DNA from: Georgenia sp. SYP-B2076 | Lineage (GTDB): Bacteria > Actinomycetota > Actinomycetes > Actinomycetales > Actinomycetaceae | Reading direction: 5' to 3' | NCBI RefSeq assembly: GCF_003991205.1 | Contig: NZ_RXOZ01000031.1 | Location: forward strand, 322,985-357,583 | Length of the DNA stretch: 34,599 nucleotides | In this document: one piece after another, positions 7,976 to 34,599 of the stretch | Numbering within the stretch: the stretch's first letter is position 1 | Layout: every line of letters starts with the position of its first letter | Notes under the pieces: generated by a model | The model's database searches: none | Told to the model about the DNA's origin: nothing | The model's input: only the letters and a program-made list of their open reading frames with translations | Program-made: the position numbers and the translations under genes

Positions 7976-7976
7976 T

Positions 7977-12743: not shown

Positions 12744-12910
12744 GGGGGCGCTCCTCGCTATCAATGTGCTGATGTGGTCGGAACGATAGCGGCCGGGCAC
12801 GGTTCCCGGGCCGGAACCGGCACGGGATTTTCGGGCCTGCCGCGGCAATCTCCATCGAGGGGCGATTACCACCCCGCTGGGGAAGTCTGCTGTGTGAGAA
12901 TGCGGTCCTT

Positions 12911-12926
12911 GGGTGCACGCGCACCC
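12911..12926. promoter_or_regulatory. Inverted repeat upstream of the BY-kinase gene
   Basis: GGGTGC (12911-12916) and GCACCC (12921-12926) form 6-bp arms around ACGC, 29 nt before the BY-kinase GTG and within the divergent gmd/BY-kinase spacer. It could be an operator or a 5'-UTR hairpin. GAGAAT at 12896-12901 is a weak -10 candidate just upstream. Confidence 0.25.
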
Positions 12927-12955
12927 GGACACGATCTGCTGCGAAGGGCGGCCGG

Positions 12956-14476: not shown

Positions 14477-14601
14477 CCCTCTGGCACGACGCGCCGGGTG
14501 GTAGCCGGCCCGCCTCCACCGACTCAGCCGGTCCGGTCCGGTCAAGCATGCGGAAACGATGCGGTTATTCCCCCGTGCACAGGGAACGGGTGGTGCGACC
14601 C

Positions 14602-14630
14602 TTGAGCGGGTCGGCCGGTCTCCCTACCGG
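14602..14630 (+). promoter_or_regulatory. Possible promoter of the phosphatase-like gene
   Basis: TTGAGC (14602-14607) and TACCGG (14625-14630) are separated by 17 bp and would start transcription about 15 nt upstream of the strong GGAGG (14642-14646) of the next gene. The match is partial, but spacing and position are right. Confidence 0.3.
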
Positions 14631-14651
14631 GCCCCACCTCTGGAGGCAGAC

Positions 14652-15314: not shown

Positions 15315-15356
15315 CAAGACGCCCGGCAAACCGGCCGTCACGGGACGAGTTCTCAG

Positions 15357-15362
15357 TACGAT
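15357..15362 (+). promoter_or_regulatory. -10 element positioned for a leaderless LuxR mRNA
   Basis: TACGAT is followed by exactly 6 nt and then the ATG at 15369, so transcription should begin at or next to the start codon. No Shine-Dalgarno sequence is present before this ATG, which supports a leaderless transcript. The -35 region is not recognisable. Confidence 0.5.
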
Positions 15363-15368
15363 GCACGG

Positions 15369-18305: not shown

Positions 18306-18730
18306 CCGTTTGCCGCCGTCAAGAAGTTCCGGAGCATCGTCGACGACGTCCAAGGCGTGTAGGGCAGGTAGACCACCGAGGCTCCCACCTCCGCCATCTC
18401 GGCCTCGAGGCGGGCTCCCTTCGGCGTGCCCTCCCAGTCGGTGCCCTTGAACAGCACGTCGAAGGGATGAGATCGCCAGGCGATGCGCTTGTCCTGCGAG
18501 ACGTCCGGCACCACGTCGTCGACGAAGCGGAGGTGGGACACGATCTCCATGCGCTCCCCGAACGGGATCACCGGGGCCCGCCCCTTCATGGTGACGAGTG
18601 CCTCGTCCGTGGCAACGCCGACGACAAGACGATCACACCTCGCCCGGGCGGCTCGAAGGATGTTGAGATGCCCGATGTGCAGCATGTCGAACCCGCCCGG
18701 CACATAACCTTTGAGGTCGCGATCTGTCAC
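18302..18730 (-). CDS. tagD: TagD-like glycerol-3-phosphate cytidylyltransferase
   Basis: The 142-residue nucleotidyltransferase has the HxGH motif in 'GGFDMLHIGHLNIL', 'GVATDEALVTMKGRAPVIPFGERMEI', 'FKGTDWEGT' (TagD has a G-x-DWEG here) and 'YLPYTPWTSSTMLR' in the position of the family's ISTT motif. Family reaction: CTP plus glycerol-3-phosphate (or a similar polyol/sugar phosphate) to the CDP-activated form used for teichoic-acid-like polymers. Start: GTG 18730 with GGAGG 9 nt upstream. It is a single-gene unit, convergent with the LuxR gene and divergent from ugd. No CDP-glycerol glycerophosphotransferase is visible nearby, so the exact substrate is uncertain. Confidence 0.85.
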   Translation of the reverse strand: MTDRDLKGYVPGGFDMLHIGHLNILRAARARCDRLVVGVATDEALVTMKGRAPVIPFGERMEIVSHLRFVDDVVPDVSQDKRIAWRSHPFDVLFKGTDWEGTPKGARLEAEMAEVGASVVYLPYTPWTSSTMLRNFLTAANG

Positions 18731-19074
18731 AGCGCACCACCTCCTCTCCCGGCTCTTCCAGCGCGGACCGATAGGTTCCCCGCGGTCCTTGCCGCCCTTG
18801 GCCGCCCGCGGCGATCGCGCGCGGCTGCTGATCTATGGATCTTGCTCCCCTCCCGGCCCGGGTGGTGCGATGTGCGGAACTCGTGCGGACCCGTTGCGGG
18901 ATCCTCGCGAGGGGTCCACGCGGGCGGCCGCTGCGCGGGGCTCGCCGTGGCGAACGCTCGGGCGGCCACCGACCATCGGGTGGCGACGAAAACGTGCGCG
19001 AAGTACGACCCGTCGCCGGGCCGGAGATGACAGCATGGCTCCGCACGGCAAGGGCGATCAGGGGGAAGGGTCCC
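18731..19074. other. Divergent spacer between tagD-like gene and ugd
   Basis: No gene with family similarity is seen in these 344 bp, although a frame in phase with ugd stays open through much of it. A weak plus-strand promoter candidate is TGGCGA (18981-18986), 17 bp, TACGAC (19004-19009). The minus-strand GAGGAGGT serving the cytidylyltransferase gene is at its left end. Confidence 0.35.
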
Positions 19075-20397
19075 ATGCGCATCTCGGTGATCGGCTGCGG
19101 CTACCTCGGAGCCGTCCATGCCGCCTCCATGGCCCGGCTGGGCCACCAGGTCGTCGGCATCGACACCGACGCCGCCAAGGTCGACTCCCTCGCCCGCGGC
19201 GAGGCACCGTTCTACGAACCCGGGCTGCCGGAGCTGCTCCGGGAGACGCTCTCGACCGGGCGTCTGATCTTCACCACCGAGATCGCCGCGGCCGGCGACG
19301 CCCAGGTCCACTTCCTGTGCGTCGGTACACCCCAGAAGCGCGGCGAGTATGCCGCGGACCTGCGCTACGTCGACGCCGCCGTCGACGCCCTGCTGCCGCA
19401 CCTGGCCCCGGGCAGCCTCGTCGCCGGCAAGTCCACCGTTCCCGTGGGGACCGCCCGCCGCCTCGCCGCGCTGGTCGCCGAGGCCGAGCCGGACGCCATG
19501 CTGGCTTGGAACCCCGAGTTCCTGCGCGAGGGTTACGCCGTCAAGGACACCCTGCACCCTGACCGGCTTGTCTACGGCGTGCCCGACGGTGCCGGCAGCG
19601 ACGCGGGGCTGCGCGCGGAGGCCCTCCTCGACGAGGTGTACGCCGGCCCGCTGGCCGAGCACACGCCCAAGGTCGTCACCGACTACACCACCGCGGAGCT
19701 CGTCAAGGTCGCCGCCAACTCCTTCCTGGCCACGAAGATCTCCTTCATCAACGCCATGGCGGAGCTGTGCGAGGCCACCGGCGCCGACGTGACCCAGCTC
19801 GCCGACGCCATCGGGCACGATGCCCGGATCGGCCGCAAGTTCCTCAATGCCGGGCTCGGCTTCGGCGGCGGCTGCCTGCCGAAGGACATCCGCGCCTTCA
19901 TGGCCCGCGCCGGCGAGCTGGGCGTGGACCAGGCGCTCGCGTTCCTCCGCCAGGTCGATGCGATCAACATGAGGCGACGCGTGCGGATGGTCGACCTGGC
20001 GCGCGAGGTCTGCGGCGGGTCGATCGTGGACCGCAACGTCGCGGTGCTCGGTGCGGCCTTCAAGCCCGACTCGGACGACATCCGCGACTCCCCCGCCCTG
20101 AACGTCGCCGCTCAGATGCAGCTGCAGGGGGCCCACGTCCTCGTCACGGACCCCGCCGCGATGGCCAACGCCGAGAAGGCCTGGCCGGACCTGTCCTACG
20201 CGCCGACGGCCCAGGCCGCGGCCGCGGGCGCCGACGTCGTGCTCCTCCTGACCGAGTGGCAGGAGTATCGCGACCTCGACCCCACCGCCTTCGGCCAGGT
20301 CGTCGCGGGCAAACGCATCATCGACGGACGCAATGTCCTCGACCCCGCCGCCTGGCGCGCCGCCGGCTGGACCTACCGGGCTCTCGGCCGGCCCTGA
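19075..20397 (+). CDS. ugd: UDP-glucose 6-dehydrogenase
   Basis: The 440-residue enzyme has 'GCGYLG' in the NAD-binding N-terminus, 'STVPVGT', 'NPEFLREG', 'ELVKVAANSFLATKISFINAM', catalytic Cys267 in 'GFGGGCLPKDIRAF', and 'GAAFKPDSDDIRDSPA' in the C-terminal domain. Reaction: UDP-glucose plus 2 NAD+ to UDP-glucuronate. The best family match is the UDP-glucose branch; the second dehydrogenase in this window (26907-28220) has the GDP-mannose signature. Start: ATG 19075, with GGGGGAAGGG 4 nt upstream. It is monocistronic and ends in a hairpin region facing the LamG protein gene. Supplies acidic sugar for the exopolysaccharide by inference. Confidence 0.94.
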   Translation: MRISVIGCGYLGAVHAASMARLGHQVVGIDTDAAKVDSLARGEAPFYEPGLPELLRETLSTGRLIFTTEIAAAGDAQVHFLCVGTPQKRGEYAADLRYVDAAVDALLPHLAPGSLVAGKSTVPVGTARRLAALVAEAEPDAMLAWNPEFLREGYAVKDTLHPDRLVYGVPDGAGSDAGLRAEALLDEVYAGPLAEHTPKVVTDYTTAELVKVAANSFLATKISFINAMAELCEATGADVTQLADAIGHDARIGRKFLNAGLGFGGGCLPKDIRAFMARAGELGVDQALAFLRQVDAINMRRRVRMVDLAREVCGGSIVDRNVAVLGAAFKPDSDDIRDSPALNVAAQMQLQGAHVLVTDPAAMANAEKAWPDLSYAPTAQAAAAGADVVLLLTEWQEYRDLDPTAFGQVVAGKRIIDGRNVLDPAAWRAAGWTYRALGRP

Positions 20398-20494: not shown

Positions 20495-23400
20495 CTACGG
20501 CCGTGCGAGCGCGGCGATCTCCTGCGCGGTGAGCGCCCGTCCGTAGAGCCCCAGCGTGTCGATCGCCCCGGTGAACGCTCGCGTGCCCCCGGACTCCGCG
20601 CCGATCGCCAGCTCGTACCCGTTCGCCCGGATCGCCGCCGGTCCAGCTGTGGCGGCCTCCTCGACGCCGTTGACGTAGAGCCGCATGGTGATGCCGTCGT
20701 AGGTGCCCGTCAGGTGCACCCAGGTCGACCCGTCGACCGGGTATCTCGAGGCGGAGTCCACCCGGTACGCGTCGCCCGAGGTCTTCTCGTTGAACCGCAG
20801 GAACGCGGTGCCCCGGCTGGACAGACCCAGCTCGAAGCCGTCCGTGTTGGTCTTGGCCTTCTTCACGACGGACTGCGTGGCGGCCTTCTCCGGCCGGACC
20901 CAGGCGGAGACCGTCATCGGACCCGTCAGGTCCAGCGATGCCCGGTCCGGCACCGCGACGTAGCCGCCGGTGAGCAGCAGCCCGGCGCCGGCCGTGCCGG
21001 GAACCCACGCGGCCGCGCCCTTGGCGACGCCGTCATTGGCGAACCCTGAGCTGTCCCCGGCCGCCGTGCCCTGCCCCTCGTCCAGCAGCCAGGCACCCCG
21101 CGGGCCGCTCGGGTCGGGTGCCGCCGGGCCGGTCGGCGCGGGGTCCGACGTCGGAGCCTCGCCCGGCGCGGGGCTGGGCTCCGCCGTCGGGCCGGGGTCG
21201 GGCGCTGCCGTGGGGTCCGCCGTCGCGCCGGGCGTCGGGCTCGGGTCCGCCGTCGCGCCGGGCGTCGGGCTCGGGCCCGCCGTCGGGCTCGGGTCGGCCG
21301 TCGCGCCGGGTGTCGGGTCCGGCGTCGGCGTCAGTTCCGGCGCGAGAGTGGGAGCGGCCGTCCCCGCGGCCGCCGTGCCCCTGGCGAGCGCCGCGACCTC
21401 GGCGTCGCTGAGCGCCCGGCCCTGCAGGCCGACGGAGTCGATCGCGCCCTTGAACGGGCGCACGCCGCCCGGCTCGGCGCCGATGGCCAGCTCGAGGCTG
21501 TTGGCCCGGATCGCCGCCGGTCCCGCCTTCGAGGCCTGCAGAGCCCCGTTGACGTAGAGCCGCATGGTCGTGCCGTCGTAGGTGCCCGTCAGGTGCATCC
21601 AGGTGGCCTTGTCGACGGGGTACTTCGAGGTGGACTCCACCCGGTAGGTGTCCCCGGACGTCGTCTGGTTGAGCCGCAGGAACGCGGTCCCGCCGCTGGA
21701 GAGCCCCAGCTCGAAGCCGTCGGTGCCGCCGTTCTTGGCCTTCTTGACGACGTACTGGGTGGCCGCCACCTCCGGGCGGACCCACGCCGAGACCGTCATC
21801 GGTCCGGTCAGGTCGAGCGAGGCCTTGTCCGGCACCGCGACGTAGCCCGTGGTGCCGTTCAGCGCGAGCGCGGTCCCGGCCTTGCCGGCGACCCACGTCG
21901 CACCGCCCTTGACGACACCGTTGTTCCCGAGCCCGGAGCCGTCACCGGCCACCGTGCCCTGGCCCTCGTCGAGGCTCCACGTCCCGCGCACGGCCGAGGT
22001 GGTGCCGATGGTGATCCGGATCGTCGCCGGCGCGGACCACAGCTCGCCCTCCTTGATGCGGAACGTGAAACTGTCGGTGCCGCTCGCGGCGGCCCCCGCG
22101 GTGTAGGTGAACACCCCGGTGGCCGGGTCGCGGACGACGACGGAGCCCTGCGTCGGCGGCGTCACGACCTCGTAGGTGAGCGGGCCGCCAGAGCTGGTGG
22201 TGGCCCGCAGGGTCCCGTCGGCGGACTGCCCCTGCATCACGGTGAGGGTGCCGTCGGCAGCCACGGGGGGCTGCGCCGGAGGCGCGGGCGGCGTCGCGCC
22301 GGTGCCGATCGTGAAGGCGCGGGCGGCGCTGACCGAGGAGGCGAGGCCGATGACCTGCCCGCTCCAGGTGTCCTTCACGCTCGTGACGTTGTTGTAGCCC
22401 CCGGACAGGACCGTCTGCCGGGACCCGAACGTCAGGTTCGCCAGTGAGGCCGTCTTCATGAGGATGTTGTCGTAGTTGGTGCTCTGCGTGTAGACGACGC
22501 GGACGGTCCCCTCCTGCTCGTTGAGCAGCACGATGCCCCGGGTGCCGATGGTGTCCACCGTGCGCAGCGGGTCCCACGTCCCGGCGGGGCGCCGGACCAG
22601 CAGGCCGATCGCCGGCTGGCTGGAGGTGTTGTAGGAGGTCTTCACCGCCGCGTAGAGCGTCCCGTTCGACGAGACGGCGACGTTGAGGTGGTCGTCCGCC
22701 ATGCCCTTGCCCACCGAGAGCGCGGACTGGCTCGCCGGCACCTCGTCCGAGGACCAGGTGGTCGGGCTGGCGCCGTCGGTGTGCGTGCGGAAGCCGAAAC
22801 GCTTGGTGTTCTGGTTCGACCACAGCACGCCGACCTTGCCCGGCAGCACCGTGACGTCCGCGATGTCGTCGACGGTGACGCCGGACGCCACGGTGATGGC
22901 GGCGGAGAAGCTCGTGTAGGGCGCGTCGGCGTACTTCACCTTCACTTCGCTCGTCGTGTCGTACGCGACCCACATGCGCCCGCGCGAGTCGATGTCGATC
23001 GTCGCGGTCTCGCTGCCCGATAGGGACACCGGCGTCGCGCCGGCGCGCGCGCCCCACGGCCGGTAGCTGTTGCTCCCGGCGTCGTACTCGACTGAGACCA
23101 GCGAAGGGCTGGGGCCGTGGAGCAGGATGTGGGTGACGTCGCCGACCCGCTTGGCGTCGGCGCGGACCGTGGTGTCTGTCGAGACCCGCAGGACGTTCGT
23201 CCAGCTGCCGTCGTCGTAGCGCCACAGCCAGGTGCCCGACGGCGAGACGGCCGTCGAGGCCAGCACCGCCCACCAGGTGCCGCGGTTCTGCCACACCTTG
23301 GACTGCGGCTTCTCGCCGGTGTTCACGGAGATCGGGATGTCCCTGGCCACGAGGGCGGCGGCAACCGCCTGGGGTGCGGGCGCCAGCACGCTGGCGGGGA

Positions 23401-23575
23401 CGCTCACCCCGGTCGGCGCGGGAGCGGGGACGCTTACGGCGGCGGTCGGCGCGGGAGCGACGGCCTGGGCGCTCTCCCGGGGCACCGCCACGAGGGCCAG
23501 CGCGAGCAGGAGGGTGACGACGAGGGCGGGTACGCCCGATCGCGCCGTCCGGGTGAGGTCTGGCGTCCGATCCAT
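20495..23575 (-). CDS. Secreted beta-propeller/Ig-like/double-LamG protein
   Basis: The 1026-residue product has a signal peptide (Arg-containing n-region, then 'VPALVVTLLLALALVAVP', cleavage near residue 40). An Ala/Pro/Val-rich stretch is followed by a BNR/exo-alpha-sialidase-like propeller (~80-430) with 'GTWLWRYDDGSWT' and 'RGRMWVAYDT'. Next are a cadherin/VCBS-like domain (~435-525), LamG 1 (~527-728), a Pro/Thr/Asp/Gly linker (~733-822) and LamG 2 (~825-1026), ending soon after 'LYGRALTAQEIAALA'. No sialidase Asp-box catalytic set is evident, so binding rather than hydrolysis is more likely. Start: ATG 23575; an upstream in-frame ATG at 23638 would put Arg-rich non-signal residues first. 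Inference: extracellular glycan-binding protein paired functionally with the giant protein at the left edge. Confidence 0.88.
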   Translation of the reverse strand: MDRTPDLTRTARSGVPALVVTLLLALALVAVPRESAQAVAPAPTAAVSVPAPAPTGVSVPASVLAPAPQAVAAALVARDIPISVNTGEKPQSKVWQNRGTWWAVLASTAVSPSGTWLWRYDDGSWTNVLRVSTDTTVRADAKRVGDVTHILLHGPSPSLVSVEYDAGSNSYRPWGARAGATPVSLSGSETATIDIDSRGRMWVAYDTTSEVKVKYADAPYTSFSAAITVASGVTVDDIADVTVLPGKVGVLWSNQNTKRFGFRTHTDGASPTTWSSDEVPASQSALSVGKGMADDHLNVAVSSNGTLYAAVKTSYNTSSQPAIGLLVRRPAGTWDPLRTVDTIGTRGIVLLNEQEGTVRVVYTQSTNYDNILMKTASLANLTFGSRQTVLSGGYNNVTSVKDTWSGQVIGLASSVSAARAFTIGTGATPPAPPAQPPVAADGTLTVMQGQSADGTLRATTSSGGPLTYEVVTPPTQGSVVVRDPATGVFTYTAGAAASGTDSFTFRIKEGELWSAPATIRITIGTTSAVRGTWSLDEGQGTVAGDGSGLGNNGVVKGGATWVAGKAGTALALNGTTGYVAVPDKASLDLTGPMTVSAWVRPEVAATQYVVKKAKNGGTDGFELGLSSGGTAFLRLNQTTSGDTYRVESTSKYPVDKATWMHLTGTYDGTTMRLYVNGALQASKAGPAAIRANSLELAIGAEPGGVRPFKGAIDSVGLQGRALSDAEVAALARGTAAAGTAAPTLAPELTPTPDPTPGATADPSPTAGPSPTPGATADPSPTPGATADPTAAPDPGPTAEPSPAPGEAPTSDPAPTGPAAPDPSGPRGAWLLDEGQGTAAGDSSGFANDGVAKGAAAWVPGTAGAGLLLTGGYVAVPDRASLDLTGPMTVSAWVRPEKAATQSVVKKAKTNTDGFELGLSSRGTAFLRFNEKTSGDAYRVDSASRYPVDGSTWVHLTGTYDGITMRLYVNGVEEAATAGPAAIRANGYELAIGAESGGTRAFTGAIDTLGLYGRALTAQEIAALARP
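20500..21995 (-). repeat. Duplicated LamG coding units flanking a 30-bp tandem-repeat linker
   Basis: The two LamG coding segments (about 20500-21095 and 21390-21995) share long stretches of near-identical DNA, for example around the codons for 'SLDLTGPMTVSAWVRPE' in both. Between them, at about 21216-21320, units of roughly 30 bp encode 'PSPTPGATAD'-type repeats. This is recent internal duplication, and the linker is likely to vary in length between strains. Confidence 0.8.
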
Positions 23576-23764
23576 GTTCCGCGCTCCCCGCGTCCGTACC
23601 GAGCCGTCCGTGGACGGCGCCGTCGCACGGCACGGCACCAGGTCGGTCGCCGCGTCGCACTCCGGTGGTCGTCAGAGAACCAGTCACCGAGATCCGTCAC
23701 GCCGCACGCGGGGGATGAAGTGAGGCTGAAACGGAGGGGTCCACGCAGGGTGAGGAGAGGGGTG

Positions 23765-25641: not shown

Positions 25642-26550
25642 CTACCGGCGCGCCTGCTTCTGCAGCGCCGGGGGCAGGCACGCGAGCTGGCGCGCCGTGA
25701 GCCCGGCGCTGGCGCGACGCGCCTGCGCGTCCGTCATGGGCGCCTGCGGCATCGTCTTGACCGGGTGGCGAGACGTCCACGTGAAGGTCACCGAGTAACG
25801 GTCCCGGGCGCGCGGCGGCGTCGCCCGGTGCACCAGGCGGCAGTTGTCGGCCATGACCGCGGTCCAGCGCGGCCCGGGGCAGGTGCGCCACTCCTGCTCC
25901 GGTTCGACCTGGCGCATCCGTGCGTCGCTCACGAACCCGGCGACGTAGTGCAGGCGGTCGACCACCTCCTGGGAGCGGTCGACCGGGATGTAGGCGAAGG
26001 GCCCGCCGTCCTCGTCGACGTCGTTGAGCCACACGAGGATCTTCAGCGTGCTCCGGTCCTCGATGTCGCGGTGCCACTGCCGGACGTCGTGGGCCTCGCC
26101 GTCGGCGATCTCGCGGCGCACGTCCGCGCCGTAGTAGCGCGCGGGCATGCCGAGGTAGTTCTCGGCGATGGCGAGCATGCGCTCCGACAGCCCGAACTGC
26201 CACACCCGCGGATCGGCGACGAGCTCGTCCATGGACGGGCGCACGGTGCCGCCCGGGAGGGGTGGCCTGCTCGCGAGGGCCGTCGCGAGCCGCTCGAGCC
26301 CCTCGCACAGCTCGGCCGTGCCCGGGAGCGCGAGCTCACCCAGCGTGGTGACATGGATCGCGTCGGCCCGCAGCCGACTCACCACGGCGGCGTCCTCGGC
26401 GCTGAGAGGAGGGAGCCTCGACGCGTACCGGCGCACACGACGGTCGTGCCGGTACCGGGCCATCCGACGCACCGGTGGCACCGACGCGATGGCTTGCCGC
26501 TTCGCACGGTTGGCGAGACGACCGACGTGCTTCGAGACGCTGACGCTCAT
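25642..26550 (-). CDS. Phytanoyl-CoA dioxygenase (PhyH) family 2OG/Fe(II) oxygenase
   Basis: The 302-residue product has the facial triad in family positions: His160-x-Asp162 in 'QWHRDIEDRSTLKILVWLNDV', followed by 'DEDGGPFAYIPVDRS', and the distal His241 in 'ADNCRLVHRATPP' with a downstream Arg ('RDRYSVTFTW') suited to 2-oxoglutarate binding. The N-terminus is basic. Reaction class: Fe(II)/2-oxoglutarate-dependent hydroxylation. Its substrate is unknown; members occur in lipid, natural-product and glycan loci. Start: ATG 26550 with GGGGG 7 nt upstream. It is divergent from the AlgD-like gene across an AT-rich spacer and upstream of rplY in the same direction. Confidence 0.85.
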   Translation of the reverse strand: MSVSVSKHVGRLANRAKRQAIASVPPVRRMARYRHDRRVRRYASRLPPLSAEDAAVVSRLRADAIHVTTLGELALPGTAELCEGLERLATALASRPPLPGGTVRPSMDELVADPRVWQFGLSERMLAIAENYLGMPARYYGADVRREIADGEAHDVRQWHRDIEDRSTLKILVWLNDVDEDGGPFAYIPVDRSQEVVDRLHYVAGFVSDARMRQVEPEQEWRTCPGPRWTAVMADNCRLVHRATPPRARDRYSVTFTWTSRHPVKTMPQAPMTDAQARRASAGLTARQLACLPPALQKQARR

Positions 26551-26906
26551 GCAGGCACCCCCGCGGGCTCAAGGCCGAATTAGTCTCAGCTGACGGTTTC
26601 GGCGAAGCGTAGCGCCACAACTCTCGGCTGTGAACCTATAAGACGCTCCCCGAAACCTTCCCCAAGACGGACACCGATTTGTCCAAAACTCGGAAAGATT
26701 ACGTCAGGGTTCGACCGTTTTACGCTGACATCCCTGACTGGCGGCCCTAGGGCGCCCAGAATTTCGATCGACCGAGTGAGGTTGAGGGCTCCATAATTAA
26801 GGGGAGAAAAGGTCAAAATCCGTTAGGGCGCGCGGCCGGACACAATCCCCTTATCGTGCTCCACAACACCACGACGCCGTGGGACAGCGGCCGGGGGGAG
26901 AACATC
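26551..26906. promoter_or_regulatory. AT-rich divergent regulatory region with inverted repeats
   Basis: This 356-bp spacer is clearly lower in GC than anything around it. Minus-strand TATAGG/TAGGTT (26633-26640) may drive the dioxygenase. Plus-strand CATAAT (26792-26797) or TATCGT (26852-26857) may drive the dehydrogenase operon. Between them lie GGACA-N6-TGTCC (26669-26684), GTCAGGG (26703-26709) with CCCTGAC (26732-26738), and the perfect palindrome GCCCTAGGGC (26744-26753). These look like operator sites, but no regulator can be named. Confidence 0.5.
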
Positions 26907-28220
26907 ATGAGAGTCGCCATCGTGGGGCTGGGATACGTCGGCACGGTCACCTCGGCGTGTCTCGCGGAGAGCGGGCACCTGGTCGTCGGGGTGGATGTCA
27001 ACCAGATCAAGATCGACCAGATCAACGCCGGGGTGAGCCCGGTGAGCGAGCTCGGGCTCGGCGAGCTGGTGCAGAACAACGTCGACCGCGGGAGGCTGCG
27101 CGCCACCAGCGACATCTGCGGCGCGGTGGCCGCCGCGGAGGCGGTCCTGGTGACCGTCGGGACGCCCTCGGGCCGCAACGGCGACGTCCGCCTGGACGAC
27201 GTCCTCAAGGTCGTCGGGGAGATCGGGCGCGCGCTGGCCGACGCGGACGGGTGGCGGCTGGTCCTCATCACGTCGACCGTCCCGCCGGGCACCGTCGAGG
27301 GCGACCTCGTCCCGCTGCTGGAGGAGCGCTCGGGCAAGAGGCGGGGCGAGGACTTCGGGGTCGCGTTCTCCCCGGAGTTCCTTCGTGAGGGCACGGCGGT
27401 TGCCGACTTCCTCTCGCCACCGAAGACGGTGATCGGCGCCGAGGACGACAGGAGCGCACGCGTCGCCGCCTCCCTGTACCGCCCATTCAGCACCGAGGTG
27501 ACCCGGACCCCCATCGCGGTGGCCGAGATGGTGAAGTTCTCGGACAACGCCTGGCACGCCCTCAAGGTCGCCTTCGCCAACGAGATCGGCCGCGTGGCCG
27601 AGGCCTACGGCGTCGACAGCCACGCCGTGATGTCGATCTTCAAGTCCGACACCCGGCTCAACATCTCCAGCCGCTACCTCACCCCCGGCTTCGCGTTCGG
27701 CGGGTCGTGCCTGCCGAAGGACCTGCGCACGCTCACGTACCGGGCGCGGCGCAACGGGGCGAGCATCCCGGTCCTGGAGTCGATCTTGCCCAGCAACCGC
27801 GCCCACCTCGACCTCGCGCTGGAGAAGATCGAGACCCTCGGCGTCAAGAAGGTCGCTGTCCTGGGCCTGGCCTTCAAGGCGGGGACCGACGACCTGCGCG
27901 AGAGCCCCTCGCTCGAGCTGGCCGAGCGGTTGCTCGGCAAGGGCTACGAGGTCCGCATCCACGACGAGCACGTCAACCTCCGTGAGCTCATCGGCGCCAA
28001 CCGCGCCTACGTGCTCGCCGTCCTGCCGCACATCGCCGAGCACCTGCACGACGACTTCCAGGAGGTCGTCCGCGCCGCCGACGTCCTCGTGGTCACGCAG
28101 AACAACCCCGCGTACGCCCGTGTCCTCGCCGAGGCGCGGCCGGACCAGACCGTCCTCGACCTCTGCGGCATCGCACGGCCGGCGCGACCGACCGCCAACT
28201 ACGTAGGTCTCACGTGGTGA
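26907..28220 (+). CDS. GDP-mannose 6-dehydrogenase (AlgD-like)
   Basis: The 437-residue enzyme resembles Pseudomonas AlgD throughout: 'MRVAIVGLGYVGTVTSACLAESGH', 'VTVGTPSGRNGDVRLD', 'TSTVPPGTVEG', 'SPEFLREGTAV', 'GFAFGGSCLPKDLRTLTYRA' and 'LGLAFKAGTDDLRESPSLEL'. The catalytic Cys falls at residue 268, the same number as in AlgD, and the 'FAFGGSCLPKD' and 'LAERLLGKGYEVRIHD' wording separates it from the UDP-glucose branch represented by ugd in this window. Reaction: GDP-mannose plus 2 NAD+ to GDP-mannuronate. Start: ATG 26907 with GGGGGGAG 6 nt upstream; an in-frame ATG at 26856 lacks a ribosome site. It overlaps the following GT4 gene. Confidence 0.88.
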   Translation: MRVAIVGLGYVGTVTSACLAESGHLVVGVDVNQIKIDQINAGVSPVSELGLGELVQNNVDRGRLRATSDICGAVAAAEAVLVTVGTPSGRNGDVRLDDVLKVVGEIGRALADADGWRLVLITSTVPPGTVEGDLVPLLEERSGKRRGEDFGVAFSPEFLREGTAVADFLSPPKTVIGAEDDRSARVAASLYRPFSTEVTRTPIAVAEMVKFSDNAWHALKVAFANEIGRVAEAYGVDSHAVMSIFKSDTRLNISSRYLTPGFAFGGSCLPKDLRTLTYRARRNGASIPVLESILPSNRAHLDLALEKIETLGVKKVAVLGLAFKAGTDDLRESPSLELAERLLGKGYEVRIHDEHVNLRELIGANRAYVLAVLPHIAEHLHDDFQEVVRAADVLVVTQNNPAYARVLAEARPDQTVLDLCGIARPARPTANYVGLTW

Positions 28221-29509
28221 CCTGGCGCGGCGCGGCCGCAACCGGCAGGGCGGGGCGGCGCCGTCCGCCCGGCCCGGACGGTCGCCCTCCGCGCGTCCTC
28301 ATCCTGGTGGAGAACCTCGCCGTCCCGTTCGACAAGCGCGTGTGGCAGGAGGCCCGCACGCTCCGGACCGCCGGGTACGACGTCAACGTCATCTGCCCCC
28401 GGTCCAAGGAGCACCCCCAGACGTACGAGACCCTCGACGGCGTCCACATCTTCCGCTACGCCAGCCCGTTCGAGGCGGCCGGCACCGCCGGGTACCTGCT
28501 GGAGTACCCCATGGCGCTCGCCGCGCAGCTGCGCCTCGCGCTCAAGGTGCACCGGGCGGGCCGGATCGACGTCATCCAGGCGTGCAACCCGCCGGACCTG
28601 CTGTACCTGGTCGCCAGCCCGTTCCGCCGGCTGACGGGCACCCGCTTCATCTTCGACCATCACGACGCGTCCCCCGAGCTCGTCGTGGCGAAGGGGCACG
28701 CCGGGGGCAGCGTGCTGGTGCGCGTGGTGGAGATGTTCGAGCGGTGGACGTTCGCCGCCGCCACGGTCTCGATCGCCACGAACGAGAGCTACCGGCGGAT
28801 CGCCATCGAGCGCGGCGGGATGTGCCCGGACGACGTCTTCGTCGTGCGCTCGGCCCCGACCGTGCAGCGGTTCGACGCGGCACGGTCGGATCCGGCGCTG
28901 CGCCGCGGCAAGCGTCACCTCGTCGCCTACGTCGGCGTGATGGGCGTCCAGGAGGGCATCGACTACCTGCTCGACGCGGCCAAGATCCTGGTCGGCCGGC
29001 GCGGACGGGACGACGTGCAGTTCTCGCTCGCCGGTTCCGGGCCGGACTTCCCGAGGCTGGTCGCGCGGGCCCGCGCGCTGGGCCTGGAGGAGAACGTGAC
29101 GTTCCTCGGGCGCATCAGCGACGAGGACCTGGCGAGCCTGCTGTCCACCGCCGACGTGTGCGTGAACCCCGACGAGGCGAACGAGATGAACAACATCTCG
29201 ACCATGAACAAGATCCTCGAGTACATGGCGCTGGGCAAGGCCATGGTGCAGTTCGACCTCGCCGAGGGTCGGGTGTCCGCCGGCGAGGCCAGCCTTTACG
29301 CGCGGCCCAACGATGCCGAATCCCTGGCCGACTGCATCGCCGAGCTCCTCGACGACCCCGCGAGGCGGGAGCGGATGGGCGAGATCGGCCGGTCCCGGTT
29401 CACCGGCCACCTCTCGTGGGAGCACTCCGTGCCCGCGCTGCTCGGCGCGTACGAGCGCGCGCTGGGCCGCACCGCCGTCCCGGTGGCGGCCCACGACGGC
29501 GGCGACTGA
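28214..29509 (+). CDS. GT4 glycosyltransferase coupled to the GDP-mannose dehydrogenase
   Basis: The 431-residue GT-B enzyme has a ~25-residue Arg/Pro/Gly-rich lead, then 'RVLILVENLAVPFDKRVWQEARTL', 'IQACNPPDLLY', 'FDHHDASPEL', 'YVGVMGVQEGIDYLLDAA' and 'NNISTMNKILEYMALGKAMV', typical of the exopolysaccharide GT4 subgroup. Its start, GTG 28214 or GTG 28217, overlaps the dehydrogenase stop, and AGG at 28205-28207 suits either, so the pair is coupled. Inference: uses or follows GDP-mannuronate/mannose-derived sugars. It ends before a tandem-repeat tract facing a convergent gene. Confidence 0.9.
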   Translation: MVTWRGAAATGRAGRRRPPGPDGRPPRVLILVENLAVPFDKRVWQEARTLRTAGYDVNVICPRSKEHPQTYETLDGVHIFRYASPFEAAGTAGYLLEYPMALAAQLRLALKVHRAGRIDVIQACNPPDLLYLVASPFRRLTGTRFIFDHHDASPELVVAKGHAGGSVLVRVVEMFERWTFAAATVSIATNESYRRIAIERGGMCPDDVFVVRSAPTVQRFDAARSDPALRRGKRHLVAYVGVMGVQEGIDYLLDAAKILVGRRGRDDVQFSLAGSGPDFPRLVARARALGLEENVTFLGRISDEDLASLLSTADVCVNPDEANEMNNISTMNKILEYMALGKAMVQFDLAEGRVSAGEASLYARPNDAESLADCIAELLDDPARRERMGEIGRSRFTGHLSWEHSVPALLGAYERALGRTAVPVAAHDGGD

Positions 29510-29551: not shown

Positions 29552-29637
29552 GTCACCACCTGGCGCGCGCGTCACCACCTGGCGCGCGCGTCACCACCTG
29601 GTGCGCGCGTCGCCACCTGGCGCGCGCGTCACCACCT
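29552..29637. repeat. 19-bp tandem repeat between convergent genes
   Basis: Four consecutive 19-bp units of gtcaccacctggcgcgcgc start at 29552, 29571, 29590 and 29609. The third and fourth each carry one substitution, and a partial fifth unit from 29628 runs into the stop codon of the minus-strand gene. It fills most of the 127-bp gap between two gene 3' ends. Coding function is excluded by position; a role in termination or as slippage-prone DNA is inferred. Confidence 0.85.
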
Positions 29638-31484
29638 CACCCGCGCTCCGCCCGGTCCTCGTCGTCCAGGCGCGCCGCGAGCGCGGCGACGGCCTGCTCC
29701 AACGGCGGCAGGGTCCACGGCCGGTGACGCCGCCGCGGCAGCCCGTAGGACATGGCGCGGTCGAGGAGCACGAGCGTGGCGGCCTCCAGCGGCGTCAGCT
29801 CGCCCAGGACCGTGGCCGCCCGGTCCGCGATCCGGCCGCGGATCTCGCCGTCGGCGAAGGCGACGAGGGCTTGGGCCAGCGTGGCGCGGCTCCTTGTGCG
29901 GTGACCGTCGACGGCGGCGTACACGCCGTCGAGCAGCAGCGGGTTCAGGCGCTCGAACCTGTTCCAGTCGACCAGCAGGGGGTGCCCGGCGCCGGGCAGC
30001 AGGGTGTTGCCGGCGTGGAGGTCCCCGTGCGTCGGGCCGACGGGCACCGTCGCCGGGCCCCAGCCGCCCAGCACCCTCTCGCGCAGCGCGCCGGCCCCGA
30101 CGTCGTCGGCGTCGCTCCCGCCCTGCGGCCCGGACAGCCTCCGCCAGAACGTCGTGGCGCCCACCGGCGCCGTGACGCCCGCGTCGACGGCACGCAGCGC
30201 CGCGTCGACCGTGGCACGGGCCCGCGCCGGGTCGGACCGCGGGCGCGTGAGCAGCGGGTACACGCCGTACGGCAGCGCGCCCCACCGCTCCACCCTCGCC
30301 CGGTCGATGACGAACGGGGCGAAGGCAGTCTCGCGGGCCTCGTTGGTCTTGCGCACCTCGTCGACGATCTTGTCCTGCTGCTCCCGCGAGAGCGGCAGCT
30401 TGACGAAGTCCCGGGCCCCGGCGATGGCGACGCGGGCGTCGCTGAGCGCCATCGTCACCGGTGCCGGCTCCCCCGGGCCGCCGGCGAGCTGCTCGGCGAG
30501 CGTGCGCACCGGCCCGAGGGACGAGCGCCCGGTGCGGGCCACGACATAGTAGTCCGCCATGACCCACGCGCCCGCGCCCGCCGCTACGGCGAGCCGAACG
30601 GCGCGCCTGCGCGGGGACGACGGCGCCATGGTGGCGCGGAGGTGCGCCCGCAGGCGCTCCTGCGGGATCAGCCAGCGCCACGTCTCGCGGCCGGGGTAGG
30701 GCACGACCACCCGGGCGGGGGTGAAGCCGGCCCGGCGGAGGCGGTCCTCGCCACTCGGGCGGCGGACCGCCTGCCAGAAGTCGGCGCCCCGCGCGGCGGG
30801 CAGTCCCCGGCGCGCGAGGTCGCGGAGGGGGTTGCGGGTGCCCGCCACGAGCGCGCCGTCGTCCGCGAGGACCCGGCGGACCTCGGCGAGCATGCGGTCC
30901 TGTGCCTGCGCCGCACCGGGCTTGGAGCGCAGCGCGCGCTCGAGCGCGCTCAGGTCGACGAAGACGACGTCGAACGACCCGTCCGGCCAGGGCAGCGGCC
31001 CGGCGGCGTTGATGTGGACGGCGACGTCGGCCGGGGCGTCGTGCATGAGCGCGTCGAACCGCAGGCGCGGGTAGACCCAGTCGGCGCTGGCGACGGCCGC
31101 ACCGAAGGAGCGCACCGCCCGGGCGAGGGTGCTCCATCCGGTCCCGAGGTCGAGCGCCGTCGCGCCCGGCCCCAGCGGCACGAGCGTGGCCGCGGCGCCC
31201 CCGGCCGGGTGGAGCAGCCGGCGCCTCAGGTCAGCCGGCCACGGCTCGTCCCCGTCGACCATCTCGTCCACGAGCCGCTCCACGGTGGCCGAGCGCCGGG
31301 CCGCCGCCGACGCGTGCGCGGGCACGCCGTCCCACGGCTCGTCCGCCTCGCTCAGGCGCACGACTCCGAGCCCGTCGACCGGGTACCGGGACGCGCACAC
31401 GCCGCACACGACGCCCGGCGCGGTCCGGCGCAGCGCGCCGCCGCACCGGCACCGCAGTCCGAGCAGGTCGCCGCTGTGCTCCAT
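29637..31484 (-). CDS. Zinc-ribbon / SAM-methyltransferase / APH-type kinase fusion (WbdD-like architecture)
   Basis: The 615-residue product contains three modules. Residues 10-35 form a Trm112-like zinc ribbon with Cys12, Cys14, Cys27 and Cys30. Residues ~85-290 form a class I methyltransferase, with motif I 'ALDLGTGWSTLA' (~110) and 'WPDGSFDVVFVDLSALERAL'. Residues ~370-615 form an aminoglycoside-phosphotransferase-like kinase, with a candidate ATP-lysine in 'FVKLPLS', a helix-C-like 'DEVRKTNEA', catalytic loop 'THGDLHAGNTLL' (~485) and metal site 'LVDWNRF'. Known: WbdD ends polymannose O-antigen chains by phosphorylating then methylating the terminal mannose. Inference: this protein may cap a mannose- or mannuronate-containing polymer of the flanking genes. 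Start: ATG 31484, no ribosome site, TACTGT 6 nt upstream (leaderless). Alternative: separate small-molecule tailoring activities. Confidence 0.8.
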   Translation of the reverse strand: MEHSGDLLGLRCRCGGALRRTAPGVVCGVCASRYPVDGLGVVRLSEADEPWDGVPAHASAAARRSATVERLVDEMVDGDEPWPADLRRRLLHPAGGAAATLVPLGPGATALDLGTGWSTLARAVRSFGAAVASADWVYPRLRFDALMHDAPADVAVHINAAGPLPWPDGSFDVVFVDLSALERALRSKPGAAQAQDRMLAEVRRVLADDGALVAGTRNPLRDLARRGLPAARGADFWQAVRRPSGEDRLRRAGFTPARVVVPYPGRETWRWLIPQERLRAHLRATMAPSSPRRRAVRLAVAAGAGAWVMADYYVVARTGRSSLGPVRTLAEQLAGGPGEPAPVTMALSDARVAIAGARDFVKLPLSREQQDKIVDEVRKTNEARETAFAPFVIDRARVERWGALPYGVYPLLTRPRSDPARARATVDAALRAVDAGVTAPVGATTFWRRLSGPQGGSDADDVGAGALRERVLGGWGPATVPVGPTHGDLHAGNTLLPGAGHPLLVDWNRFERLNPLLLDGVYAAVDGHRTRSRATLAQALVAFADGEIRGRIADRAATVLGELTPLEAATLVLLDRAMSYGLPRRRHRPWTLPPLEQAVAALAARLDDEDRAERG

Positions 31485-31490
31485 GCAGGG

Positions 31491-31496
31491 ACAGTA
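31491..31496 (-). promoter_or_regulatory. -10 element positioned for a leaderless methyltransferase-kinase mRNA
   Basis: TACTGT on the minus strand is followed by exactly 6 nt and then the ATG at 31484, with no Shine-Dalgarno sequence between. The geometry equals that at 15357 and 32621. Confidence 0.5.
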
Positions 31497-31515
31497 CGGG
31501 CCCCGCGCCCGCGCC

Positions 31516-31573
31516 GGGGCGGTTCCGGGCGGCGTCCCGGCACCAGGGTCGGGGCGGTTCCGGGCGGCGTCCC
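31516..31573. repeat. 23-bp direct repeat upstream of the methyltransferase-kinase promoter
   Basis: A perfect 23-bp sequence occurs at 31516-31538 and 31551-31573, a 35-bp period, containing ggttccgggcggcgtccc. The copies lie between the stop of the beta-helix gene and the -10 of the methyltransferase-kinase, overlapping and extending past the -35 position. They may be paired operator sites or simply a duplicated 3'-end tract. Confidence 0.7.
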
Positions 31574-31585
31574 AGCACGGGAGCG

Positions 31586-32518
31586 TCAGTCGTCGTCCGG
31601 CTTCTCCGCGCCCAGCACGATGTTCGAGTCGTCCCACGTCGCGTTGGGACCGATGTGCGCCTTGGCGCCGTAGCGGAAGTCGCCCTGGACGGTGTTGTTA
31701 CGAAAGTCGCAGGCCGCGCCCTCGGTGCCGCTCCCGCCGCCGTTGACGGTGTAGTTCCCGCCGTTCATGAGGTTGCCCTCGACGGTGCAGCTGCTCACCG
31801 GGCCCGAGTCCTCCCCGAACATGAACGCGGCGTTGCCGTAGATCCCGGTCTCCGGGTTGTAGGCCTGGAGGTTGTTGCCGCGCACCACGATGTTCTCGCC
31901 GGACATCACCTGGATGACGTCGGTGTGGTTGTCCCCGCGCTGCACCAGGTCGTGGATGTAGGAGTCCTCGATGGTGACGTCGCCGCCGGCGATGCGCGGG
32001 CCCTCCGCCACGTTGTAGATGTCGACGCGGCGCAGCGTGTAGCCGTTGTAGGCGATCGCGGGGTTGGCGCGCCCCTGGCCGTCGATCTCGCTGTCCTCCA
32101 TGACGAAGTTGTCGCCCTTGACGCGGATCGCGATCTTCCCCGAGGTCATCACGATGCGGGAGTTCCTGATGACGACGTCGTCCGCCTCGACCACGACGTT
32201 CCCGTGGATCTCCAGCCCGTCGATGACGGTGCCGTCCTCGTCGATGGTCAGCTTGTCCGACTGGACGAGGTTGGTGCCGTCCGGCACCCCGGTCGTCGTG
32301 GCGTCGGGGAAGCCGGCCGAGGGCGCCGGGCCCGCCGTCGACGGCGAGGGCGGGGTGGGCTCCGGCGTGGCGGGCGCCGTCTGCGAGGCGCCGTCCGTCG
32401 GGGTCCGCTCGTCGCGACCGGGAAGGTAGGTGATCAGCGCGACGACCACGGCGACGACGACGGCGGCGGCGGCGCCCAGAAGCAGGGCTCGGGTGCGGGA
32501 CCTTGGGGTGGCGGACAT
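31586..32518 (-). CDS. Membrane-anchored parallel beta-helix (pectate-lyase-fold) protein
   Basis: The 310-residue product has a short basic N-terminus, one membrane segment (~11-33, 'LLLGAAAAVVVAVVVALITYL') acting as signal or anchor, a Pro/Thr/Ser-rich spacer (~38-72), and a right-handed beta-helix (~75-300). Ladder residues include 'IDGLEIHGNVVVEADDVVIRNSRIVM', 'EDSYIHDLVQRGDNHTDVIQV' and 'GENIVVRGNNL'. The fold is shared by polysaccharide lyases, hydrolases and AlgG-type C5-epimerases; 'DNHTD' is a candidate active-site patch. Start: ATG 32518 with GGAG 8 nt upstream. Beside a GDP-mannose dehydrogenase, a polyuronide-modifying role is attractive but unproven; it could also be a non-catalytic cell-surface protein. 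Confidence 0.82.
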   Translation of the reverse strand: MSATPRSRTRALLLGAAAAVVVAVVVALITYLPGRDERTPTDGASQTAPATPEPTPPSPSTAGPAPSAGFPDATTTGVPDGTNLVQSDKLTIDEDGTVIDGLEIHGNVVVEADDVVIRNSRIVMTSGKIAIRVKGDNFVMEDSEIDGQGRANPAIAYNGYTLRRVDIYNVAEGPRIAGGDVTIEDSYIHDLVQRGDNHTDVIQVMSGENIVVRGNNLQAYNPETGIYGNAAFMFGEDSGPVSSCTVEGNLMNGGNYTVNGGGSGTEGAACDFRNNTVQGDFRYGAKAHIGPNATWDDSNIVLGAEKPDDD

Positions 32519-32632: not shown

Positions 32633-33496
32633 GTGGCCCACACCTCGGTGAGCGTCGTCATCCCCGCCCTCAACGCCGCGGGGACCATCGGGACGCAGCT
32701 GGGCGCGCTGGCGCGGCAGGAGGTCGACGCCGCGTGGGAGGTCATCGTCGTCGACAACGGCTCCTCGGACGCGACGGTCGAGGTGTGCCAGTCCTACGAG
32801 TCCCGCCTGCCGGCGCTCCGCGTGCTCTCCTGCGCGCAGCCAGGCACGAGCGCGGCCCGCAACACCGGGGCCGCCGCGTCGTCGGCCGACCTGCTGCTCT
32901 TCTGCGACGCCGACGACGAGGTCGCGCCCGGGTGGGTCGCGGCCATGGTCGCGGCGCTCCAGGCGAGCGACGCCGTCGGCGGCGCGATCGAGAACGACCG
33001 CCTCACCCCCCGTCCCCTGCCGTACCTGCCGCGCCACCCGGACCATCTCCCGGTCGTCGCGGGGTTCCTGCCCCGCGCCATCACCGCGAACCTGGGTGTC
33101 CACCGCCGCGTCTTCGAGGCCGTCGGCGGGTTCGCGGCGGACTACGACTACGGCGGGCCGGACACCGAGTTCTGCTGGCGGCTCCAGCTCGCGTCGTACC
33201 GGCTGACCTACGCGCCGGACGCGGTGGTGCACTACCGGCACCGGCACACCCTGCGCTCTGTGGCGGTCAAGGCGTACCGGACGGGCCGCTCGCGGGGCCG
33301 GCTGTTCCGGGACTACGCCGCGGCGGGGATGCCCCGGCCGCGCCTGGCCGGGGTGGCGCTGCGGTGGGCACGCCTGGTGGTGACCCTCCCCGGCGCGCTG
33401 GTGTCCCCGCGGCGGCGGTGGTGGTGGGCCGAGCAGGCCGCGGGCGCCGCCGGTCGGGTCGCCGGGAGCGTCCGCTTCCGCGTGCGCTATCTCTGA
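32633..33496 (+). CDS. GT2 family glycosyltransferase
   Basis: The 287-residue GT-A enzyme opens 'VSVVIPALNAAGTIGTQLGAL', has the nucleotide-binding 'VIVVDNGSSDATVEV', the metal-binding DxD equivalent in 'LLFCDADDEVAPGW', and an acceptor-side 'YGGPDTEFCWRLQ' (the usual ED/DxD-E-W-R signature). The C-terminus is Arg-rich and may sit on the membrane. Start: GTG 32633, apparently leaderless. Divergent from the beta-helix gene and convergent with the second GT2. Inverting transfer of a sugar to a lipid-linked glycan is the usual family role; donor unknown. Confidence 0.9.
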   Translation: MAHTSVSVVIPALNAAGTIGTQLGALARQEVDAAWEVIVVDNGSSDATVEVCQSYESRLPALRVLSCAQPGTSAARNTGAAASSADLLLFCDADDEVAPGWVAAMVAALQASDAVGGAIENDRLTPRPLPYLPRHPDHLPVVAGFLPRAITANLGVHRRVFEAVGGFAADYDYGGPDTEFCWRLQLASYRLTYAPDAVVHYRHRHTLRSVAVKAYRTGRSRGRLFRDYAAAGMPRPRLAGVALRWARLVVTLPGALVSPRRRWWWAEQAAGAAGRVAGSVRFRVRYL

Positions 33497-33557
33497 CCCG
33501 GGCTACGTCTCCGACCCGGGCTACGTCTCCGACGCGGGCTACGTCTCCGACCCGGGC
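33495..33557. repeat. 18-bp tandem repeat at a convergent gene end
   Basis: Units of gacccgggctacgtctcc start at 33495, 33513 and 33531 (the third with one substitution), and a partial fourth begins at 33549. The array begins inside the TGA stop of the plus-strand GT2 and ends inside the last codons of the minus-strand GT2, whose stop and final 'PGSET' are encoded by repeat sequence. Confidence 0.85.
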
Positions 33558-34489
33558 TGCGGCAACTCGCCGGGCAGCCACCCCCGGCGCCACTCGGCGC
33601 GCCGGCGCCAGGTGTCGCGCCACGCCTCGACGCCGGCGGCCGGGCGGCCCCCCGGGCCGCGCAGGCCGGCCGCCAGGGCCCGGACCCCGGCTCCGGCGAC
33701 GAGGAGCTCCCCGGCGACGCCCCCCCACGGGCGGGGCAGGTTCTTCCGGTAGGTGGTGACCCGCCCCCGCAGCACGAGCGGCAGCCGGTTCGACCCGTTG
33801 GAGGACGCCCCGACGCGGTGCCGGAAGATGGCGTCCGGGCACACCCGCGGCGACCAGCCCGCCCGGCCGGCCCGCAGGCTGAGGTCCGCGTCCTCGCCGT
33901 AGAGGAAGAAGTCCCGGTCGAAGCCGCCCAGGGCCTCCCACGCGTCCCGCTCCACGAGCATCATGCCGCCGCTGACGACCGGGACCGTCCGGGCGTCGCT
34001 CGGCCAGCGGTCGGAGGACTCCGGGTCGAGGTAGCGCGAGCCCGGGAAGACGCTGGACAGTCCGGTAGCGAAGCACAGCGCCGACCACAGCGTGGGCGGC
34101 CCCCACCAGGAGCGCGGGTCGGTCCGGCCGTCGTCGGTCAGCGCCCGGCCACCGATGAGCCCGGCGTCGGGGTGGGCCGCCGCGCAGGCGAGGAGGGCCT
34201 CGACGGCGCCGCGCTCGAGCACGGCGTCGGGGTTGAGGAAGAGCAGGCGACGGGCGCCGGACCGCGCCGCCCCCGCGTGGCAGCCGCGGGCGAACCCGTC
34301 GTTGACGTCGCGCAGCACCAGCTCGACCCGGTCGGAGACGCCGGCGACGGCGGACTCGAGACCGTCCCGGGAGTCGTTGTCGACCACGATGATGCGCGCG
34401 CCCGGGACGTCCCGGAGCGCGGCGTCGGCGGCGCGCAGGCACTCGCCGACGTATCCGGCACTGCGGTAGGTCACGACGATCACGTCCAC
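33539..34489 (-). CDS. GT2 rhamnosyltransferase-like glycosyltransferase
   Basis: The 316-residue GT-A product has 'DVIVVTYRSAGYVGECLRA', 'RIIVVDNDSRDG', 'RDVNDGFARGCHAGA', the 'FLNPDAVLE' metal-binding motif and 'GGFDRDFFLYGEDADLSLRA', the typical WbbL/RfbF-type rhamnosyltransferase layout. Start is uncertain: GTG 34489 has no spacing to GGAG, GTG 34483 has GGAGG at 5 nt, and the frame stays open (Pro/Arg-rich, no start codon) to the window edge, so the gene may begin outside. The stop lies in an 18-bp tandem repeat. Likely adds a deoxyhexose or similar sugar to a lipid-linked chain, as inference from family. Confidence 0.86.
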   Translation of the reverse strand: MDVIVVTYRSAGYVGECLRAADAALRDVPGARIIVVDNDSRDGLESAVAGVSDRVELVLRDVNDGFARGCHAGAARSGARRLLFLNPDAVLERGAVEALLACAAAHPDAGLIGGRALTDDGRTDPRSWWGPPTLWSALCFATGLSSVFPGSRYLDPESSDRWPSDARTVPVVSGGMMLVERDAWEALGGFDRDFFLYGEDADLSLRAGRAGWSPRVCPDAIFRHRVGASSNGSNRLPLVLRGRVTTYRKNLPRPWGGVAGELLVAGAGVRALAAGLRGPGGRPAAGVEAWRDTWRRRAEWRRGWLPGELPQPGSET

Positions 34490-34599
34490 CTCCGCGCCCG
34501 GGCGGCGCTCGCCGTCCGGGGGCGCACCGCGCTCCGCCGGACGGCCGGGTCGCGCCGGGCGGCCGGGCTGCGCGGGACGGGCGGCGCGGCGCGCCGCCC

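Follow-up and report, generated by a model that had tools for sequence, protein, structure and literature searches.

What does a protein that joins a methyltransferase to a kinase contribute to an actinobacterial glycan locus, and does it set the length of a polysaccharide chain? The question is raised by a 34,599-nucleotide stretch of the genome of Georgenia sp. SYP-B2076 (contig NZ_RXOZ01000031.1, positions 322,985 to 357,583; hereafter the window), in which a gene at 29637-31484 encodes a class I methyltransferase dependent on S-adenosylmethionine (SAM), followed by an APH-type kinase. The initial annotation likened this methyltransferase-kinase fusion (MTK) to WbdD, which phosphorylates and methylates the terminal mannose of Escherichia coli O9a-type chains and so fixes their length. 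Here we report that the kinase half of MTK is akin to a family of stand-alone kinases of actinobacterial glycan loci, that MTK has no detectable sequence relation to WbdD, and that it is present on some and absent from other versions of a shared Georgenia glycan cluster. We put at roughly 55% the probability that MTK tailors a cell-surface polysaccharide with both of its activities, as a glycan kinase-methyltransferase.

Results

MTK is an intact fusion found in glycan loci

The gene, its exact extent and its two domains with intact motifs were borne out by Pfam and by alignment of the four full-length MTK proteins recovered in our searches. Scanned as a whole protein, MTK matches Methyltransf_11 (PF08241) above the gathering score (E 9.6e-6; 3.0e-6 for the domain alone), and a profile of its methyltransferase matches MitM in the PDB (E 4e-8); residues D112, T115, G116, D135, D172 and D177 are invariant in all four proteins. 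The APH family (PF01636) was not listed when the whole window protein was scanned against Pfam, and was matched when its kinase half was scanned alone (E 2.1e-5, 24.8 bits against a cut-off of 23.2); all four kinase halves, scanned separately, lie above the cut-off, and K362, E376, H486, G487, D488, L489, H490, N493, D506 and W507 are invariant throughout. The N-terminal Cys ribbon (CxC...CxxC) also held, with Cys 12, 14, 27 and 30 invariant in the three Georgenia proteins; the fourth protein, from genome G713, retains C14 only. AlphaFold models computed from two-sequence inputs were too poor to use (predicted local distance difference test, pLDDT, of 36 for the full length and 43 for the kinase alone), and the result of a Foldseek search with the low-confidence kinase model (pLDDT 43; 0 of 73 matches at E <= 0.001) was not used.

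Full-length relatives of MTK are rare. They occur in three of nine Georgenia genomes (the window's own, G000, together with G133 and G076) and in two of the 297 genomes drawn for the order-level search, the own genome and G713, which belongs to another family. A class search of 394 genomes with a single-sequence query and a phylum search of 396 genomes with a profile (E <= 1e-6) each returned a full-length match in the window's own genome only, the remaining rows being short one-domain matches that, in the phylum search, fell within the methyltransferase region; these wide searches score 3-6 candidates per genome (3-4 at class and phylum level), so that rare relatives may be missed. A scan of genome contigs found one locus, in Georgenia sp. 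EYE_87, and a plasmid search with MTK gave no match. One locus flagged in the class search (L020, in G377) held no MTK-like open reading frame (ORF) by eye. No actinobacterial methyltransferase-kinase fusion of this kind is described in the titles and abstract beginnings covered by our literature search.

All four full-length proteins are encoded in glycan loci together with GT2 glycosyltransferase genes, a LamG protein and a large multidomain protein that we call P2, in agreement with the initially suggested linkage of the fusion to such loci. The linkage to GDP-mannose-using genes that had also been suggested was not conserved: among 11 genomes, an orthologue of the window's AlgD-like gene was found only in G133 (83%), and hence in two of the four carriers. 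In the Georgenia carriers the cluster sits between pth-rplY and prs-glmU. Besides MTK and P2 it encodes glycosyltransferases, a beta-helix protein, a Wzy_C protein and an ABC-exporter-like protein, whose ABC_tran match is strong and whose ABC_membrane match is near the cut-off. A small Wzz-like candidate has a weakly Wzz-like counterpart in genome G107 (E 0.017), and the LamG protein is in or adjoins the cluster. The window itself reaches the contig end, which probably cuts its last GT2 gene (33539-34599), and a GT2-like frame extends beyond the beginning of contig C18 of the same genome; because gene order is shared with G133, the MTK cluster most likely continues there, where P2 is found along with Wzy_C, ABC-exporter-like and GT2 genes.

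A P2 cluster occupies the pth-rplY/prs-glmU site in five of the nine Georgenia genomes (in G126, P2 was recognized by tblastn), and none was called at this site in the other four. Three of the five clusters carry MTK; those of G107 and G126 do not, and have instead TupA-like ATP-grasp genes (PF14305), to which G107 adds a pyridoxal phosphate-dependent decarboxylase and an AMP-binding enzyme. The TupA-like proteins, which presumably add an amino acid, occupy the tailoring end of a homologous cluster, as MTK does, although their enzyme class is unrelated. Because two of five clusters carry a TupA-like gene and no MTK, MTK has the look of an exchangeable module for tailoring, set on an assembly core that the clusters share, and would therefore fit poorly with an essential length-setting role.

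The kinase half resembles stand-alone kinases of actinobacterial glycan loci

Among the matches that covered the kinase alone, the order-level search ranked P0005 of genome G685 best (MTK residues 419-604, E 9.3e-8); it is a stand-alone kinase whose locus holds Wzy_C, a sulfotransferase and a flippase. A hidden Markov model (HMM) of 16 stand-alone kinases finds all four MTK proteins (E 7.6e-11 to 4.7e-7). With the same model WbdD scores 0.25, the best protein other than MTK, WbdD and P0005 scores 0.021 among 385 background gene calls, and the best of 500 shuffled and 7 reversed copies scores 1.3. A tblastn search with P0005 recovers MTK at four loci (29-32%, E 9e-9 to 2e-4).

P0005-like kinases were found in 60 of 369 class genomes (E <= 1e-8). 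Fifteen neighbourhoods, mostly of higher-ranked matches, were examined (L158-L172; with L062, 16 loci): a sulfotransferase is present in 14, a Wzy protein in 13, a Wzx-like protein in 13 and all three in 13, the exceptions being L163 (sulfotransferase only) and L169 (none of the three). In 11 of the 15 the order is Wzy-kinase-sulfotransferase-Wzx, equal to wpsJ-wpsI-wpsH-wpsG as given for the wps-1 cluster of Actinoplanes missouriensis (PMC13390465). That account assigns WpsI a protein kinase-like domain and describes squashed sporangia upon deletion of wpsI, as upon deletion of the whole cluster (PMC13390465). Some ORFs in the gaps of L158, L160, L161, L164, L165 and L166 look, by eye, like Alg13/Alg14-type glycosyltransferases. 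Such loci hint that many actinobacteria may make sulfated, perhaps phosphorylated polysaccharides.

Akin to MTK, then, the P0005-like proteins are APH-like kinases of polysaccharide loci, with a C-lobe significantly similar to that of MTK and with Wzy-like and transport genes nearby, as on contig C18. They differ from it in having neither a fused methyltransferase nor a ribbon, and their loci carry a sulfotransferase whereas the Georgenia and G713 stretches do not.

MTK compared with the chain terminators WbdD and ORF6

What stood of the WbdD-like label was the layout: in WbdD of E. coli O9a, as in MTK, a methyltransferase precedes a kinase within one protein of a glycan locus, and this domain order and setting recur in all four carriers. 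The implied relatedness did not stand. In BLASTP, the best stretch between MTK and the WbdD reference (the E. coli HS protein, which matches PDB 4azs) was 54 residues around the kinase loop with E 0.78, and hhalign scored the full-length protein at 2.3%, its kinase at 4.2% and its methyltransferase at 8.3%, as against 97.1% (E 7e-11) for the positive control, the MTK kinase profile aligned with P0005. Since both comparisons are at chance level beside this control, we rejected MTK as a WbdD homologue; at the level of sequence it shows no kinship to WbdD. The class of kinase was dropped as a separator in its own right: the MTK kinase halves match APH in four of four cases and Pkinase in none, but WbdD matches APH (2.4e-9) and Pkinase (5.3e-9) alike.

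WbdD is described as having a eukaryote-like kinase and a coiled-coil region, with residues 460-708 following the kinase (PMC3482155). In MTK, kinase homology stops near residue 605 of 615, so that about 10 residues remain, which by length leaves no ruler extension. The ribbon had been proposed to replace the WbdD coiled coil; being N-terminal, and missing in G713, it is not a substitute for a ruler.

A closer parallel, compared by description, is ORF6 of Klebsiella pneumoniae O7, which joins a methyltransferase to a kinase weakly resembling the aminoglycoside-type kinase AmiN (Z 7.4, 11% identity), places a methyl phosphate on O-3 of the terminal rhamnose and is presented as a proven terminator (PMC11231755). 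Because ORF6 joins the same two activities, the pairing seen in MTK is a known kind of machine, and by this analogy a methyl-phosphate product of MTK is plausible. The N-terminal part of ORF6 shares with MTK the order of methyltransferase then APH-like kinase; ORF6 differs in its CBM-like domain, coiled coil and glycosyltransferase modules and in serving an ATP-binding cassette (ABC) transporter pathway (PMC11231755). Its coiled coil follows the kinase, where MTK has, by length, no C-terminal room for one.

Could MTK nevertheless be a terminator of the WbdD type, phosphorylating and methylating the non-reducing end of a finished chain and thus fixing its length? The same two activities in the same order, and the precedent of an APH-like kinase in ORF6, speak for this idea, as does G713, in which Wzm (PF01061) and a Wzt bearing the carbohydrate-binding domain PF14524 lie 8-9 kb from MTK (Wzz and, below threshold, Wzy_C are also matched in this stretch). 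Besides the missing sequence link and ruler extension, it has to contend with the absence of PF14524 from G000 (Wzm was not searched for there) and its location away from the MTK locus in the G133 and G076 genomes, with the Wzy_C protein and Wzz-like candidate of the Georgenia clusters, and with the two P2 clusters that do without MTK. We leave it a small but real chance.

P2 and the neighbouring genes

P2 (750-810 residues; L064:926-3211 on contig C18) lies in the core of the cluster and, as a whole, was not described by any family searched. Its relatives were found at L026, L027, L061, L086, L091, L098, L099 and L100, being shorter or truncated in L099 and L100, and those in genomes G599 and G721 adjoin Wzx-type flippases. 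The N-terminal part is Rossmann/methyltransferase-like by eye, and four of the eight proteins have a weak NTP_transf_5 match (best E 0.012). The middle domain has invariant RGGNW and NPxHSxD motifs; it had looked like a nucleoside-diphosphate kinase by eye, a suggestion that we rejected as a PDB profile search gave a single match (E 0.37), not to such a kinase. The C-terminus is protein-kinase-like (Pkinase in five of eight, best 2.5e-4) and matches a lanthionine synthetase model with E 1.7e-8, far below that model's cut-off. This kinase aligned with WbdD at 26.6% in hhalign, above the MTK score and still not convincing; it and the WbdD kinase both match protein kinases in the PDB. Since P2 shares its locus with MTK, two different kinases might tailor one glycan.

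The initially named neighbours of MTK, an AlgD-like dehydrogenase, three glycosyltransferases (one GT4, two GT2) and a beta-helix protein, all hold (Table 1). The dehydrogenase is closest in the PDB to AlgD (1mfz, 405 bits over the full length; the next, 242), and its nearest NCBIfam equivalogs are UDP-glucose dehydrogenases, far below their cut-offs. The beta-helix-like protein has a relative at each of the other Georgenia carrier loci (82% and 62% identity). Its own Pfam match is weak (E 0.8), and the counterpart in G107, of 29% identity, matches Beta_helix with 1.6e-5, just under the cut-off. For the GT2 protein at 32633-33496, both other Georgenia carriers have a relative (79% and 74%), and that at 33539-34489 is 80% identical to about half of a 632-residue double GT2 in G133.

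APH-type kinases commonly use small soluble substrates, and MTK could on that account be a precursor enzyme, acting on a free sugar or nucleotide-sugar that, once phosphorylated and methylated, is incorporated into the glycan. The AlgD-like gene next door and the weak nucleotidyltransferase-like match of P2 would suit such a role, but the AlgD neighbour is not conserved and the stand-alone kinase relatives adjoin polymerase and sulfotransferase genes; we consider a precursor enzyme rather improbable. Because its orthologue occurs in only two of four carriers, the AlgD-like gene is also a doubtful clue to the acceptor.

The MTK start is the ATG at 31484, enclosed by a longer ORF (29637-31637, minus strand), and the equivalent start was used when aligning the two Georgenia relatives; GC content by codon position in the MTK ORF is 0.80/0.59/0.95. 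No clear Shine-Dalgarno sequence was seen upstream of MTK and a sigma-70 scan found no site for it; TACTGT stands 6 bases ahead of the ATG, a spacing that would fit a leaderless start. Just before the start, at 31501-31570, are two head-to-tail 35-nucleotide copies that are 86% identical.

Three further features of the window lie beyond these genes. A PhyH-like protein (25642-26550; weak, E 0.075, below cut-off) has a relative of 65% in the cluster of G076, and no relative was listed for the G133 stretch. A LamG/Ig-like protein (20495-23638) adjoins pth and has relatives in the stretches of G133, G076, G713 and G107. At 6471-20397 we recognized by eye a second polysaccharide cluster with GDP-fucose synthase, GDP-mannose dehydratase, Wzz/tyrosine-kinase-like and cytidylyltransferase-like genes, a LuxR-type regulator and a UDP-glucose dehydrogenase.

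Table 1. MTK, its domains and the adjoining genes (window coordinates).
Feature	Position	Strand	Basis or remark
Methyltransferase-kinase fusion gene (MTK)	29637..31484	-	615 residues; ORF and Pfam, 4 full-length proteins aligned
N-terminal ribbon, residues about 10-45, CxC...CxxC (C12, C14, C27, C30)	31350..31457	-	Alignment
Class I SAM methyltransferase domain, residues about 95-320 (core 107-221)	30525..31202	-	PF08241; PDB profile match MitM
APH-type kinase domain, residues about 345-605	29670..30452	-	PF01636 and glycan-locus kinase HMM
Kinase catalytic loop HGDLHAGN, residues 486-493	30006..30029	-	Conserved in 4/4
Metal-binding motif VDWNRF, residues 505-510	29955..29972	-	Conserved in 4/4
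Beta-helix-like protein, N-terminal hydrophobic segment (by eye)	31586..32518	-	Just upstream of MTK, same strand
AlgD-like dehydrogenase	26904..28220	+	PDB 1mfz match
GT4 glycosyltransferase	28214..29509	+	PF13692, PF00534
GT2 glycosyltransferase	32633..33496	+	PF00535, E 1.8e-26
GT2 glycosyltransferase, probably 3' half of double-GT2 gene	33539..34489	-	PF00535

Discussion

If MTK is a glycan kinase-methyltransferase, we envisage that it acts on the cytoplasmic side, where its kinase would transfer phosphate from ATP to a sugar hydroxyl of a lipid-linked repeat unit or chain, and its methyltransferase would use SAM to methylate the same phosphate, or a nearby hydroxyl, before export. Export and polymerisation of the modified product would then fall to the ABC and Wzy-like proteins encoded at the locus. 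The domains, their intact catalytic residues, the linkage to glycan loci, the affinity of the kinase and the presence or absence of MTK on a shared cluster are observed here, whereas the substrate, the order of the two reactions, the methyl-phosphate product and the roles of the transport and polymerase genes are what we infer. In its mode of action MTK would be comparable to WbdD and, judged by kinase class, closer still to Klebsiella O7 ORF6. It has no visible ruler and probably arose separately, from a methyltransferase and a WpsI-like kinase of actinobacterial glycan loci.

Several observations weigh against this reading. It is the C-lobe that links MTK to the stand-alone kinases; their N-terminal part aligns weakly or not at all. 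The sulfotransferases of G685 (three neighbours, one assigned by Pfam and two sulfotransferase-like by eye), together with its Wzy and Wzx-like proteins, found nothing by tblastn in the Georgenia and G713 stretches (E <= 1e-3). No relative of the MTK methyltransferase was found in the 16 stand-alone-kinase loci (best E 2), a result that lends no support to an origin of MTK by fusion of neighbouring methyltransferase and kinase genes. WpsI probably belongs to the P0005-like family, as judged from gene order only, and its mutant phenotype is unspecific, mutants of wpsA, wpsC, wpsG, wpsH, wpsJ and wpsK being described as looking the same (PMC13390465). Lastly, the G076 protein (L003) is one residue short in SAM motif I (LDL-TGW instead of LDLGTGW), a hint of either weakened methyl transfer or a sequencing error.

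This gap, with the modest methyltransferase Pfam scores, is what would be expected if the methyltransferase half were degenerate, serving as a scaffold or SAM sensor beside an active kinase; as its six motif residues are invariant in all four proteins, we think this very unlikely. That MTK is a small-molecule or antibiotic kinase placed in a glycan cluster by chance, as the Pfam APH match might suggest, is highly improbable, given that all four MTK proteins and also the nearest kinases found sit in glycan loci and that a PDB search with the MTK kinase profile returned no antibiotic kinase at E up to 10 (three matches, the best being 'Kinase' at 0.055).

How might a tailoring enzyme such as MTK affect chain length? 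Given the direction of Wzy polymerisation, a cap at the non-reducing end would not stop growth in the way of WbdD, and a capped repeat unit could become only the distal end of a chain. We therefore entertain, as a speculation with a slim chance of being right, that MTK is an independently assembled methyl-phosphate enzyme of a Gram-positive, Wzy-type pathway, in which some lipid-linked repeat units would receive such a cap, and the supply of caps and not a coiled-coil ruler would mark or limit the chain. In the papers drawn on here, methyl-phosphate ends belong to coiled-coil terminators of Gram-negative O antigens. A ruler-free actinobacterial methyltransferase-kinase, if real, would mean that methyl-phosphate chemistry arises repeatedly. 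MTK would also offer a handle on the widespread family of P0005-like kinases, a probable member of which, WpsI, is needed for normal sporangia in Actinoplanes.

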